DNA of 64,000 nt. Source: Planctomycetota bacterium. GTDB lineage: Bacteria > Planctomycetota > PUPC01 > JACPCR01. The position numbers and the translations under genes are program-made. Under the pieces are notes generated by a model. The model was not told where the DNA came from and searched no databases. It was given only the letters and a program-made list of their open reading frames with translations. Where the stretch lies: assembly GCA_027625095.1 (NCBI GenBank), contig JAQBXN010000027.1, positions 1 through 64,000 of the forward strand. The letters run 5' to 3'. This document shows, in pieces, positions 38,598-45,710 of the stretch (the first letter of the stretch is position 1; every line of letters starts with the position of its first letter).

Positions 38598-41500
38598 ATG
38601 AATTCACGACCTCCCTTCTCCATTCTGATTCTGCCGGCCTGCCTCTCAGTCCTGCATGCCGAAAGCTTTCAGCCCAGTCAGCCGCAGAACATTCCTTCCG
38701 ATGCATGGCAAACGTCTGGAGAGGGCGTCAAAGAGGGCGATAGCGAATTCGTGCAGAAGGGCAGGGCAGCTTTCACCTTATCACTGGCTGATACTCGCTC
38801 CCCCAATTATTTGCTTCGTGGCGAATTCCTCCTGCCTGAACCTGGTGCGTCGTTTTCAGTAGCCGGTGGTATTCAGGAGGTTGACGGAAAAACACTTTCG
38901 GCCCGTGGGAATATTGCCCTGATGGGTGACGGTAAGACTTTGAGATTGGGGCGTGAAAAGCCACAAATCGAAAATGTCACGACTGCCTGGCAGCCATTCG
39001 AACTTGGCCGTATCGGTAAAACTGCGCAGATTTCATTGGCAGGGATGGCCGTCCCGGCAAACCCGCTTCCCTCGGCGGGAGGCGGTTGCTCGGTCACTCT
39101 AATTAAGGGTGCAAGAGTCAGGAATCTGTCTGTTCTGTCACTGCCCACTGGCTTTTTTCCGCTGTCAATGCAAGACAAGGCTAATACAAACGTCAGCTAC
39201 CTGGAATCATTACCCAGGGGAATGAATTCTTTCAGAGACATCCCATTTCTCTTCTCTGATAAGGCAGAGGCCAACGCCCTCGACGTGGCGTCCTCTATGA
39301 GCGGGCTGAAAGAACCCATTCGGCTCAAGTACACTTACCTTCATCAAAATGGCACAAACGCGAACGGCCGAATTGTGCTGCCTGTCCCCGGTGACCAGTA
39401 CTCCGCGCTGCATCTGGTTGCATTCTCCGGCAGTCGGGATGGTCATGTGCCGCGGATGACGGTGAGTATTGGTTACTTCGGTGGCGCTTCCGGTATTCTG
39501 CATCACCAGGTTGTTGCCGTACCGGAACTCGGCGGGAAAGACAAAGTTCCGTTCCTCGAAGCAAGCATCCTGGTCAAGCTCAAGGACGGTAAGAGTGGTT
39601 ATCTGCACTACCTGCGAGTCCCGATGCCGCAGAGTGGCAACGTTCGTGAGTTTGAATCTCTAAGCATCGAGTTCACACGCGACATCAATGTTCACCTCCC
39701 TGTCCCCGACCCGTTCGAGTTTGGTAATCTGCCTGCAGGGAAGCCCAGTGACGTTCATCTGCTTGCAGCAACTCTTGAGAGTTCACCGCTGCTGTTTACC
39801 CACATTTCCGATGAGCCGGGGAATGTCTTTTCCGACAAACAGAAAGCGATATTCAAGTGCGCCGTGACGAACCGCGGAAAGGAGAAGATATCTGCACGAG
39901 TCTTCGCCAACTGTTCGGGGCCGGGCACGGGCGAACAGCATGGAATTGACCATAAGGCGTGGACCGAAGACATAAAAATCGAGATCGGTCCGGGTGAGAC
40001 AAGAGAAGTTCCGCTCGATGTTACACCCGAGAGGCGAGGCTGGTACTCTTGCGCGATTGGCGTCGAAGCGGATGGCCGAGTCCTTCAGCAGCGCGATACC
40101 ACATTCGCCGTTCTTGCCCCGGATACGCGCAAGGCAAAAGAGGACTCACCGTTCGGCGTCTGGGCCTTCTGGTTGCCGCACAGTGTGAAATTTGGCGGCC
40201 AGAAACAGATCGACGATATCGCCAGTCTGATTCAGAAAGGCGGCTGGCGTTGGACCTACGGCGGCAGGCCTGTAGTAAGTCGCAACAATAAGCCGGAAGA
40301 CACAACCCAGGCGATGCACCGCATAAAGGATATTTATGGCATCACCCTGACTCTTCAGAGCCCGCCTAATGGTTATCAGCGTGGTGAAGGCTGGTTTGAC
40401 GAAACGGAGTTTGAGAAGCAGGTCATTCCCTGGTTGAAGACCTCACAGGAGAATCGAATCGATAACTACTACAAAGTGATGCACGAATCGCGATCTTCTA
40501 CAGACATCGTCCGACGCGTCAGCGAGACCCTTGGCGGCAGCGAGTACGACATGCCCGATGCTGAAAAGGAAAAACTCAAAAAGCAGTTCGAGAACGTGAA
40601 GAAATATTGTGCTGCAATCAAGAAGGCAGATCCGCAGGCCAAAATTGTCCTGATTAACGATTATCCGTCCGTCGGCATTGAATTCATGAAGCTTGGCATG
40701 CCTGCCGAGTACTTCGATGCCTGGGGAAGCGAAGGCGCCATGTTCATGCGTCAGCCAGAACGTCAGCCGGACTGGCTCTGCCTGCTCGGGCAGGTGAATA
40801 TATGGAAACGTGCTCAAAAGAAATACGGCTACAGCAAACCGGTCTGGTTTACCGAGGCACTCTATCACGGCACGAACCCGGGTAACCTTACCCTGCACCA
40901 GCAGGCCGTCATAGGCGTCCGCGAAGCCATGCTGGCTCTGGCAAACGGCATTGAACGTCTTGCCTCATGTGGCTTGATTAAAGACTCGTCCGATGACTAT
41001 CACTGGAGCAACTGGGGCGCAGGTGGTTACTGCTACCGCGAGCCTGAGATCAATCCAAAACCGAGTTACGCTATGTTTGCCTGGCTTACACAACTCCTCG
41101 ACCAGGCCAGGCCCGCCGGCTTCGTCAAGAGCGACAGCGATGTCCTTCACGTCCTTGACTTTGAGAAAAAGGACGGCTCACACATCTATCCAATCTGGAT
41201 CGTTCGAGGCCTCCACCAGGTCCAACTTGCTATCTCCGGCAGCCCTCAGGTATTCGATGCGTTCGGTAATGTCCTGAACGTAAAGACGCAGGAAGGCGTT
41301 CTCTCCCTCGAAATTTCAGATACACCGGTTTACATCACCGGAGCGACCGTTTCCGGGGTAGTCAGCAACGAGCCTGTTGAACAAGAATCGAAGACTCTTC
41401 CGAACGTGCTGAAATTTGAGAGCACCAGGTTCCAGGTTGTCCAGGCAGCCAATCCAATCCTTGATAACGATTGGGCCGTGCCACGCCTGAAGGGGACGTT

Positions 41501-42215
41501 CGATCTGTCTACACCGGCTGAAGACGGGGTATCTTGCCTGAAGGTAGAACTGCAGGATGACGATGACGCGCGGAAACTCCTGCCACGCTACGTAGAACTC
41601 GCCCTTCCGCAGCCTCTCGAACTGACCGGCCGCCCAATCCAGTTCTCACTCCGGATGAAGGGCAACGGGGGCTGGGGCCGGGTGATGTTCGAACTTGCCG
41701 ACGCAAAAGGACGCATTTGGACCTCCTGCGGAAACCAGTATTCGGGCGCTTCCAATTCTTCGGACAACAAGGGGACTTCCTGGATCAACTTTGAAGGCTG
41801 GAACACCATCACCATGCCGCTGCCTGGCCAGTATCCCGGCGACGACCAATTCGTTCATCGTCCACACAAATTCGACTGGTGGCCCACCAATACTCCTGAG
41901 GCTATCGAGATCGAAAAGACCTATCAGGAGTCATTGAAAAAACACGAGGTCGCGCTCAAGGAACACGAGATCGCATTGCAAGCCTACGAGGCCCTGAAAG
42001 CGAAAGCCCTTGAAGAAAAGAAGCCTATCCCAGTCCCCCCCAAGGCGCCCGGCGGCCCACGGAAGCCGCATCCTGGCCATGAGCCCGTCGATTACCCGAT
42101 TAAACTGACCAAGGTCATTGTCTCGATGCGACCGCACATTCTGTATGTGGACGAAGAACGGCCTGTAAAGAACCGTTCCGTGTATCTGGACTGGCTGAGT
42201 GTGGAAGGGGAGTGA
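38598..42215 (+). CDS. Large secreted protein with putative TIM-barrel glycoside-hydrolase-like core and C-terminal jelly-roll-like domain
   Basis: Signal peptide; APDTRKAKEDSPFGVWAFWLPH...KPVWFTEALYHGTNPGNLTLHQQAVIGVREAMLALANGIERL; sugar-binding-like C-terminus. Confidence 0.6.
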   Translation: MNSRPPFSILILPACLSVLHAESFQPSQPQNIPSDAWQTSGEGVKEGDSEFVQKGRAAFTLSLADTRSPNYLLRGEFLLPEPGASFSVAGGIQEVDGKTLSARGNIALMGDGKTLRLGREKPQIENVTTAWQPFELGRIGKTAQISLAGMAVPANPLPSAGGGCSVTLIKGARVRNLSVLSLPTGFFPLSMQDKANTNVSYLESLPRGMNSFRDIPFLFSDKAEANALDVASSMSGLKEPIRLKYTYLHQNGTNANGRIVLPVPGDQYSALHLVAFSGSRDGHVPRMTVSIGYFGGASGILHHQVVAVPELGGKDKVPFLEASILVKLKDGKSGYLHYLRVPMPQSGNVREFESLSIEFTRDINVHLPVPDPFEFGNLPAGKPSDVHLLAATLESSPLLFTHISDEPGNVFSDKQKAIFKCAVTNRGKEKISARVFANCSGPGTGEQHGIDHKAWTEDIKIEIGPGETREVPLDVTPERRGWYSCAIGVEADGRVLQQRDTTFAVLAPDTRKAKEDSPFGVWAFWLPHSVKFGGQKQIDDIASLIQKGGWRWTYGGRPVVSRNNKPEDTTQAMHRIKDIYGITLTLQSPPNGYQRGEGWFDETEFEKQVIPWLKTSQENRIDNYYKVMHESRSSTDIVRRVSETLGGSEYDMPDAEKEKLKKQFENVKKYCAAIKKADPQAKIVLINDYPSVGIEFMKLGMPAEYFDAWGSEGAMFMRQPERQPDWLCLLGQVNIWKRAQKKYGYSKPVWFTEALYHGTNPGNLTLHQQAVIGVREAMLALANGIERLASCGLIKDSSDDYHWSNWGAGGYCYREPEINPKPSYAMFAWLTQLLDQARPAGFVKSDSDVLHVLDFEKKDGSHIYPIWIVRGLHQVQLAISGSPQVFDAFGNVLNVKTQEGVLSLEISDTPVYITGATVSGVVSNEPVEQESKTLPNVLKFESTRFQVVQAANPILDNDWAVPRLKGTFDLSTPAEDGVSCLKVELQDDDDARKLLPRYVELALPQPLELTGRPIQFSLRMKGNGGWGRVMFELADAKGRIWTSCGNQYSGASNSSDNKGTSWINFEGWNTITMPLPGQYPGDDQFVHRPHKFDWWPTNTPEAIEIEKTYQESLKKHEVALKEHEIALQAYEALKAKALEEKKPIPVPPKAPGGPRKPHPGHEPVDYPIKLTKVIVSMRPHILYVDEERPVKNRSVYLDWLSVEGE

Positions 42216-42393: not shown

Positions 42394-44580
42394 CTAAGCC
42401 GAACTCTCATGACATTCTCGTGGGGCCAGGAAAAGAATCGCATCGTGTGTCAGGGCTTTCAAATTCGAGATGTGAACTGAGACTGGATTCTCAGAGTGAA
42501 CTACATGTCGCTCCAGAAGCACAAATCCTCCTCTCTTGAGTGCAAGTGTTAATGCAGACCAAGCTTTGGGATTCCAGTGATGAAAGGTAAATACGAGTCT
42601 GCCTCTGTCCTTCTTCAATACTCGATGGCACTCAGCGAAGATACCCCCAAGCAAATCGGCGTATTCAATATCCTGCCGGCTATTCTGACCGACGGCGGAA
42701 TCTTTGAGTGCGTAATCCCAGTTGGCTTCATTGGGTAAAAGTCTTTTCAACCAAACCCGAAAAAAAGCAGCGAGGTCACTGTATTGAACACTGTCGAAAT
42801 AGGGTGGGTCCGTGACTACATAGTCTACTGAGTCTGAGTCGAGTTTAAGAGAGACAGACGAGCCCTGAAGCATTAAGAACCGACGACTATCTTTCTTCAG
42901 GGCTGACTGTCGCTTAACCTCTTGACCGTAATCCACCTCGCCATCAATGGAGACGGTTTCTGCCGAGCCATTGTTTATGTATCTCTCTTTCGGCAAATTC
43001 GCCCATTTCTTGCCTTTCCTGATTCTACTTCTGAACAGATTCTGCAGGGTGCCGGAAACAGACGCGGGATTAACCGGGTTATTTTCGAGAGCGGTGTACG
43101 GGAATGAATAGGCATGGTGAGAAAAGGTATGACGAATTGCCCCAGGACGATTCTTGGCCCCGCCCTTATAGCCGCAAAGCATACAATTGAACTCCAGTGA
43201 CGTAGAAACGAGCAAGGCCAGACTCATCCTGGCGCCCGGTTCAATTGACTGAAGAATATCGTTGGCCTCCGCAAGATAGAGTAATTGCCGGCTGGAAAAT
43301 AAATCCAGGTAGCTCGTTATGTTTCTCCGGACAAGGTCACGGGACTTCGGCCCTTGAATGATTTTAAAGTCCCTTTCGTCTCCGAGGTCCAGTTTGAGTC
43401 GCTGCTTGTCAGCCTCGCGGGTGAGGGCCAGGTCTCTCTCGGAAGGTGGTTTGAAGAAGAGCCCGTGATGGCTGCACTCGCCAACTATGGCGATGGGCTC
43501 GAACCGTGCATAGTAAGGCGCATCTGTGGGCTCCTTGAATGGCTCATCACACATTGAACACGACTGAGTTCCCTTTGTCTTGATGGGCGGCTTTGGAGAA
43601 CCTGACGCCTTGAGGATTTCGCCTCTATTGGAAATATTGTGAGTTTCGGGACATATCTCAATGTTTGTGTCGTCACTCTCCTGACGGAGAACGGTCGAAT
43701 CCAGGAAGAGCGCAGGGCCACACTTACAGGTTCTCTTCGCCGCATAGAGGGTGAATCGGCAATCGACATCGTTAGGGCAGAAAGAACATTGGGTTTTGAA
43801 GAACTGGCTCAACCGCGAATTCAACGCCTCAAAAAATACGCTGAAGGCTTTCTCCAGATCACGAAGCGAGATATCCGAAAGTGTGGCCTTTGCCTGCAAG
43901 ACAGGAATGGGGTCAATATCCGCCCCGATCACGTTGGCGCCCAATCGAATCGCTTCATGGACCGTGGTGCCTCCGCCCATCATGGGATCGAGGATAATTT
44001 TCCCTTCAAGACCGCCAGGAGTGTAGTAGTCCCTTTTAGCCTCATCTTCGACGAGATGCTTCAGAATCATACGGAAAGTGCTTCCGCATCTTCTAGCCCA
44101 CCACTTGTGAAGATAAGTGTTCGGCCGATAGAGATGTTTGTTATAGGATTCAAACTTGGCGATGGAATTGGCCAGTTCCGCGTCAAATCCTGCCGCCACC
44201 CTCGCCGACTCCGTTAGACTCCACAAGTATGCTTGGGCTGGATCGTTTATGACGAATCCGTTGACTTGCTCGGCGCTTGTGATTCGTCTGGCAATCTCCC
44301 GTGCTGCCGCTACCTGTGCTGCCTTTGCACCCGTCAAACCTTTTACCCCCATCAATTCTTCAAGGGGCGCCTCGGACAACGCGCCCAGGCTGCCGAACCG
44401 CTTCAGAAGTTGCTTAGCCAAGTTGACCGCGCTACCTCCCGGAACACCAACTCGAATCAGAATTGCAAGGAGTTCAGCGTCAGAGACGGTCTGAGGACCC
44501 TTTTTCAGCAATTTTTCTCGCGGACTAGTCTCCCTGGACCGGGAAGAAATTCCGACCGAATTCTTCTGCTTCTTCGACAA
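42394..44580 (-). CDS. RadC N-terminal (HhH) domain fused to zinc-ribbon-containing DNA methylase
   Basis: TTG start at 44580 preceded by AGGAG-8 nt; PREKLLKKGPQTVSDAELLAILIRVGVPGGSAVNLAKQLLKRFGSLGALSEAPLEELMGVKGLTGAKAAQVAAAREIARRI (RadC_N) then YRPNTYLHKWWARR, IILDPMMGGGTTVHEAIRLGANVIGADIDP, DYVVTDPPYFDSVQYSDLAAFFRVWLKR. Confidence 0.85.
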   Translation of the reverse strand: MSKKQKNSVGISSRSRETSPREKLLKKGPQTVSDAELLAILIRVGVPGGSAVNLAKQLLKRFGSLGALSEAPLEELMGVKGLTGAKAAQVAAAREIARRITSAEQVNGFVINDPAQAYLWSLTESARVAAGFDAELANSIAKFESYNKHLYRPNTYLHKWWARRCGSTFRMILKHLVEDEAKRDYYTPGGLEGKIILDPMMGGGTTVHEAIRLGANVIGADIDPIPVLQAKATLSDISLRDLEKAFSVFFEALNSRLSQFFKTQCSFCPNDVDCRFTLYAAKRTCKCGPALFLDSTVLRQESDDTNIEICPETHNISNRGEILKASGSPKPPIKTKGTQSCSMCDEPFKEPTDAPYYARFEPIAIVGECSHHGLFFKPPSERDLALTREADKQRLKLDLGDERDFKIIQGPKSRDLVRRNITSYLDLFSSRQLLYLAEANDILQSIEPGARMSLALLVSTSLEFNCMLCGYKGGAKNRPGAIRHTFSHHAYSFPYTALENNPVNPASVSGTLQNLFRSRIRKGKKWANLPKERYINNGSAETVSIDGEVDYGQEVKRQSALKKDSRRFLMLQGSSVSLKLDSDSVDYVVTDPPYFDSVQYSDLAAFFRVWLKRLLPNEANWDYALKDSAVGQNSRQDIEYADLLGGIFAECHRVLKKDRGRLVFTFHHWNPKAWSALTLALKRGGFVLLERHVVHSENPVSVHISNLKALTHDAILFLAPRECHESSA

Positions 44581-44879
44581 TCTAGTTGCTCCTAAGAGGG
44601 GCGCGGGCTCTATCCAGTAGCCTCTGGAATGGCAAGCTTGAGGGTGGGTCTTATGGCCGCTGGCCGCGGTCCACAACACATGTAGAGCCGGAGAACGCGC
44701 TCCTTCCATCCCTTTGTATGATGAGCTAATATTGGCCACCATGTGGTCGCAGCGACTGCTAGGAAAGGAAACGCTTGTTCGGCGTGGGTAACACCTTCTT
44801 TCCAAAATGGTTTCCCCAGTGAACATTTGCGATTGGAGGCAAAGTGTCCCCCGATACTCACCGCGCCGCGCGGCTTCCC

Positions 44880-45250
44880 TTACTTCATTCCAAAGACATC
44901 CTTCAGGTAGATCTTGAATGAAGGTGAAGGCCGGAACAGCTTGCCTTCGGTGTTGTTGACGACGAGGAAAAGATAGAAGTCGGTGTCCGTGCGTAGGCCG
45001 GACGGCATCTGGGCTGGCTTGGGCTATGCGTTGCCGAGTTTCATGGCGCCTTTGCCGTCCTGGTAGGGACTCATCCAGATGTCGTAGCGTTTGGCGCCTT
45101 CTACTGGTTCGAAGTGGACGTAACAGCGGGTGCCGTCGGCTGTCTGATCGGGGAGCGTTGTTCGGGTGATGTCGGCGGAATCGAATGTGCCGCACTGGGC
45201 CATTTCTTCGATCGGATTGCCCAGTTCGGGGATGCCCTTCGGACGAGCAT
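44880..45250 (-). pseudogene. Decayed C-terminal fragment of an unidentified protein
   Basis: Minus frame PKGIPELGNPIEEMAQCGTFDSADITRTTLPDQTADGTRCYVHFEPVEGAKRYDIWMSPYQDGKGAMKLGNA*PKPAQMPSGLRTDTDFYLFLVVNNTEGKLFRPSPSFKIYLKDVFGMK* with one internal stop. Confidence 0.65.
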
Positions 45251-45432
45251 GCGGAGTCTGGACAGGCGGATCGTTTCGCGGGTCCTGTTCGGTTGCTTAC
45301 TCGGCGAGAAGATAGGCCAGGAGAACCTCGTCTTTCCTTGCGGGTATCGACGTCGCCCGCCGGAAGAATCCAAAGCATCTGACGTCATCCTGAAATGCTC
45401 CGGCGTTCGCTCACGGAGCATTACTTGGATAT

Positions 45433-45710
45433 TCAAAATTTAAAGGCGCCATTATCCCATCCTTTGGCCGACCGCTGACCCTGGCAGTCGAATGGGATGC
45501 TGAGGCCGTAGCGGTTCCTGAAATCGGCATAAGGAACTTTTTCTTAATGGGCGCTGTGCCCTGATCGAGAGTGGCGTCAACGTCATACACATTCGAGTCT
45601 TTCAACTTCAGGTCACTGGGGCCCGCTGCATTGATCAGTCCGATTTTGCCAGCACTTTCTGAATAACGGAGGTATGGCATTCGGATCCGACTATCTTCGC
45701 ACGAGTCTCA
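45433..45710 (-). pseudogene. Frameshifted C-terminal fragment resembling a parallel beta-helix (polysaccharide-lyase-like) protein
   Basis: Frame 1 MPYLRYSESAGKIGLINAAGPSDLKLKDSNVYDVDATLDQGTAPIKK, frame 2 VPYADFRNRYGLSIPFDCQGQRSAKGWDNGAFKF*; shift near a 5-A run at ~45533-45545. Confidence 0.6.

Follow-up and report, generated by a model that had tools for sequence, protein, structure and literature searches.

A RadC N-terminal domain without its JAB domain joined in frame to a zinc-ribbon DNA methylase in a planctomycete genome

In a 64-kb stretch of planctomycete DNA (hereafter the window), a single open reading frame on the minus strand (42394..44580) carries the N-terminal helix-hairpin-helix (HhH) domain of RadC followed by a zinc-ribbon DNA methylase. 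We read this gene most readily as a single-chain version of a pairing of RadC with DNA methylases that recurs elsewhere. On balance, we lean towards the explanation that it encodes an orphan methyltransferase with a JAB-less RadC HhH tether, made in a planctomycete from the 5' part of a RadC gene and a methylase of the Anaerolineae type.

The frame is open through all 728 codons, from a TTG at 44580 to 42397, with the stop codon at 42394-42396. A Shine-Dalgarno-like AGGAG (44593-44589) precedes the TTG by 8 nt, and the proposal that translation starts there, made from the sequence alone, is supported by the alignment of this codon with the start methionine of a planctomycete RadC (L020; MSKKQK.. 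versus MKKQNK..) and by the codon bias. The bias amounts to 0.07-0.10 per codon in the fusion frame and falls below zero in both remaining sense frames; it favors the fusion frame in both the RadC half and the methylase half and gives no coding support for an in-frame extension upstream of 44580. It is weaker than that of the neighboring genes. The RadC part and the methylase would be translated as one chain.

Residues 15-105 (44266..44538, minus strand) make up the RadC/UPF0758 N-terminal HhH domain, as indicated by a Pfam match, the predicted structure, and a phylogenetic tree. UPF0758_N (PF20582) matches residues 15-88 with E=1e-22 and a score of 80 bits (cut-off 27). The sequence-only reading had placed this domain at about residues 20-105; the identification stands, whereas the extent needs correction, since similarity to RadC reaches about residue 117. 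The same reading noted the absence of the JAMM/MPN domain, and indeed a Pfam search did not find the RadC JAB domain (PF04002) in the fusion protein, nor is there any JAB similarity in the 64-kb window, including any JAB remnant at the fusion site. The protein scores 87 on the RadC equivalog model, below the cut-off of 180. The junction (44200..44265, minus strand) holds a RadC remnant that runs towards JAB as far as about residue 117, plus a linker. Because methylase similarity begins only at about residue 128-133, the join lies slightly inside the expected start of the JAB domain and not exactly at it, as had been suggested. No flanking repeats were found at the junction.

The remainder of the gene (42397..44199, minus strand) encodes a zinc-ribbon N6/N4 DNA methyltransferase, recognized by the Pfam profile N6_N4_Mtase (PF01555; E=2.7e-13, 50.8 bits against a cut-off of 26.7), by its motifs, and by its relatives. 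The YLHKWWARR motif (44115-44089), motif I (DPMMGGGTT, 43989-43963), and the catalytic DPPY (42810-42799), all on the minus strand, are accompanied by intact CxxC clusters, so the motifs and the profile together uphold the original assignment. The best match among solved structures is the DNA-adenine methylase CcrM (6pbd), and the methylated base is most likely adenine-N6. In the defence library, the methylase part matches PglXI, HmaB, and DUF1156-type methylases; it scores 61.6 bits on the NF042963 equivalog (DUF1156 anti-phage), which has a cut-off of 1000 bits, and 12.4 bits on DUF1156 (PF06634), under the cut-off of 24. Two relatives of the window methylase (L005:1195-3696(-) and L030:1999-4548) appear by eye to possess an N-terminal Xre-type helix-turn-helix region, i.e. 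another DNA-binding module in the position that is occupied by RadC_N in the window gene.

An AlphaFold model of the fusion has a mean pLDDT of 85, with the RadC helices (residues 20-107) mostly at 78-93, a confident methylase, and values below 50 for residues 107-123. The model thus consists of two domains predicted with confidence and connected by a flexible linker. HhH domains of the RadC kind bind the DNA backbone without sequence specificity. In the fusion protein, the RadC module would bind backbone or structured DNA in this nonspecific manner and would probably tether the methylase to DNA, so that the enzyme binds more tightly or is guided to particular substrates, while the methylase domain would provide sequence recognition and catalysis.

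Sequence comparisons place the nearest relatives of the two parts in separate groups, planctomycete RadCs for one and Anaerolineae methylases for the other. The RadC part falls into a 99/84 clade with five planctomycete RadCs, apart from the complete RadC of the same genome (contig 133), in a tree that carries modest weight because it was built on a short alignment. Three RadC genes of this clade group (L279, L281, and L282) abut or overlap type III mod genes. For the methylase part, identity to Anaerolineae methylases (L025, L027, and L028) is 52-60%, with L026, from another Chloroflexi MAG, similarly close; its planctomycete relatives are just about 30% identical. The fusion may have arisen when the 5' part of a planctomycete-type RadC gene met an Anaerolineae-type methylase gene gained by lateral transfer; the two could have been joined in one step, or JAB could have been deleted from an existing pair of RadC and methylase genes.

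None of the four closest methylase relatives (L025-L028) carries a RadC domain ahead of the methylase, and their N-termini begin at about residue 128-133 of the window protein. An internal GTG (44199-44197) with a GGAG 9 nt upstream of it (together 44197..44212, minus strand) lies at this point, and a methylase-only product could begin there because the codon has its own GGAG and its position is that of the relatives' N-termini. The functional product might then be the methylase alone, the RadC part being an in-frame leftover or serving translational coupling only; moreover, elsewhere RadC_N and methylase are encoded by separate touching genes. We consider this account unlikely, although it is the alternative we take most seriously: RadC_N retains a start codon, a Shine-Dalgarno sequence, in-frame codon bias, and a complete fold with no stop, and a ribosome initiating at the TTG necessarily makes the fusion.

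No second copy of the exact fusion turned up in anything searched. The expectation that the same architecture would occur in other genomes failed in this strict sense, as it was found neither in 399 planctomycete genomes nor in 9 genomes of the class, the four closest relatives of the methylase, 80 methylase loci from genome contigs, or in plasmids, phages, or viral contigs. Several candidates were rejected. RadC within frames of 650-783 residues (L018 and L021) reflected spurious open frames in GC-rich DNA, and L314-L318 held no RadC-methylase fusion either; L016/L278 was a truncated ordinary RadC without a methylase, and two short Chloroflexi frames were an ordinary RadC cut off where the retrieved sequence ended and a frameshifted ordinary RadC.

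A single known copy could also indicate a chimeric gene in decay, produced by illegitimate recombination and having no selected function. The C-terminus of the methylase is about 50 residues shorter than in the four closest relatives, and a search downstream at the site recovered no trace of the missing tail. Upstream of the fusion, and not part of the gene, lies a degraded coding sequence (44600..45673, minus strand; codon bias 0.11 in a different frame, with stops), two scanned pieces of which have no Pfam match. The codon bias of the fusion, being below that of its neighbors, would agree with decay as well. Nevertheless, we regard this origin as improbable given that 728 of 728 codons are open and the catalytic and zinc-ribbon motifs are kept, and that the lost tail falls outside the catalytic motifs and is variable across the wider methylase family. 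The singleton status, the internal GTG with its GGAG, the missing C-terminal residues, and the adjoining degraded sequence were all counted against the tethered-methyltransferase explanation.

The genome assembly is fragmented (262 contigs) and has 5.8% contamination, which counts in favor of an assembly artefact uniting two unrelated genes. Such an artefact is very improbable, because the parts join in frame to give one 728-codon gene with even codon bias and a repeat-free junction. Furthermore, the contig looks authentic, since its adjacent gpsA and DUF2851 genes are also side by side in the same-family genome G063, where the fusion site itself is not syntenic. The neighbors of the fusion gene encode DUF2851, a 1205-residue protein, Gfo/Idh, PhyH, creatininase, and MR_MLE; a restriction nuclease was found neither in the operon nor in the fusion protein itself, in agreement with the earlier statement that no restriction partner is adjacent. 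The 1205-residue protein (38598-42215) has no Pfam match, and a 26%-identical relative of it sits near the gpsA-DUF2851 pair in G063.

RadC_N proteins lacking JAB also exist in free-standing form, with about 95-126 residues. Their genes lie immediately upstream of a methylase gene in 11 of 12 assessable loci, from Planctomycetota, Patescibacteria, Bacteroidota, and one viral contig, and the partners comprise 7 type IIG-like, 3 DUF1156-like, and 1 HsdM enzymes. In most pairs the two genes overlap or are separated by only a few bases. The window gene fits the general description as well, in that a JAB-less RadC_N either directly precedes a DNA methylase or forms one protein with it. Among 389 Patescibacteria genomes, all three JAB-less RadC_N genes located away from contig ends are directly upstream of a methylase, which is an 820-residue DUF1156-like enzyme in L087 and L149 and an HsdM-like enzyme within a type I operon in L148. 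Six such genes in Planctomycetota (L271-L275 and L289) precede Eco57I-type methylase-domain enzymes of 1041-1160 residues, those of L272 and L275 matching type IIG models; of two further planctomycete loci, L276 ends at a contig edge and L278 is the truncated ordinary RadC, which has no methylase. In the one Bacteroidota case (L312) the neighboring methylase is closely related to that of L149, and on the viral contig (L311) the neighbor is a type IIG-like enzyme. A plasmid search with solo RadC_N gave no matches.

Nine of the solo proteins carry HPGGK or a very similar sequence in place of the RPRE(R/K) of RadC, and they form a 100/99 clade spanning two phyla and the viral contig. In L272:1914-5446, L275:836-4589, L311:4977-8523, and others, a small HPGGK-type RadC protein overlaps a type IIG-like enzyme as a conserved two-gene unit. 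L289, from the same class as the window genome, belongs to a different RadC_N lineage and has a different methylase class from the fusion, which we also counted against the preferred explanation. A further viral contig (L324:2047-9364) encodes a 406-residue protein with a weakly RadC_N-like N-terminus (E=3e-6), together with a methylase of DUF1156-like type and an ATPase that by eye resembles DUF499. The persistence of RadC_N without JAB, in more than one lineage and beside different methylase classes, argues that HhH may be the part that matters in the JAB-less loci. These loci are consistent with RadC-methylase operons having lost JAB to leave either a solo RadC_N or a one-chain form.

RadC proteins that keep JAB are associated with methylases as well. 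In L146:3377-7788 (Patescibacteria), an in-frame fusion of RadC-JAB to a D12 adenine methylase precedes an AlwI-type nuclease and another methylase, and a second Patescibacteria genome (L147:1-3842) has a RadC-JAB-D12 arrangement like that of L146. L150:2960-5992 combines an Xre regulator, a RadC-JAB-C5 cytosine methylase fusion, and an HpaII-type nuclease in one operon. In Patescibacteria, separate RadC genes are also neighbors of genes of type I, II, and III systems (L155, L156, L162-L164, L168, L171, L183, and L185). For contrast, 13 of 60 Patescibacteria full-RadC loci have any methylase within 4 kb, compared with 11 of 12 for the JAB-less set; the difference (Fisher p=8e-6) is a guide only, since shared ancestry is ignored, the criteria are unequal (immediately adjacent versus within 4 kb), the JAB-less set covers more phyla, and some methylase queries were taken from the same loci. 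The initial suggestion that the RadC HhH module works with DNA methylases gains support from this repeated pairing and fusion with restriction-modification methylases.

RadC is a very common bacterial protein whose function is not agreed upon. Its role in repair is disputed, and PMC5512222 cites both sides. In PMC9674854, RadC and a DUF1156 methylase are reported on the same archaeal plasmid group and are not linked to each other. We found no paper linking RadC_N to methylases in the open-access literature, an absence that is weak evidence because only open-access papers were covered; as far as the searchable literature goes, the pairing is undescribed. Tentatively, and with a little more doubt than belief, we propose that RadC HhH, with or without JAB, is a widespread unrecognised accessory of type I, II, IIG, III, and DUF1156-like restriction-modification methylases, of which the window gene would be the one-chain, JAB-less form with an orphan methylase. 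If so, the long-disputed RadC family would acquire a function, either in modifying DNA or in handling the substrate DNA of such systems. The recurrent and separable use of RadC_N beside or inside several methylase classes would give the domain a concrete, testable role, and a small protein that currently goes by no other name than "RadC family" would become a candidate part of systems that are type IIG-like or related. The window gene would offer a natural single-chain form of the pairing.

Compared with known systems, the fusion shares with the RadC/UPF0758 family (PF20582 plus PF04002, TIGR00608) its N-terminal HhH domain, start site, and planctomycete sequence type, but a methylase stands in the place of JAB. 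It resembles the zinc-ribbon methylases near DUF1156 (NF042963, PADLOC DUF1156_MTase, PglXI, and HmaB) in HKWWARR, DPPY, CxxC, and profile similarity, whereas it falls far under the equivalog cut-off and carries an N-terminal RadC domain; unlike in DUF1156-type systems, neither DUF499 nor a helicase partner is present in the window. With the solo RadC_N-methylase pairs (L087, L148, L149, L271-L275, L289, L311, and L312) it has in common a JAB-less RadC_N that comes first and is methylase-linked, but those are two touching or overlapping genes instead of one, mostly of the HPGGK lineage and with type IIG-like partners. Finally, the RadC-D12/AlwI (L146 and L147) and RadC-C5/HpaII (L150) proteins likewise place a RadC N-terminal domain in frame ahead of a methylase, yet JAB is retained in them, their methylases are of other classes, and a restriction nuclease is encoded next to them.
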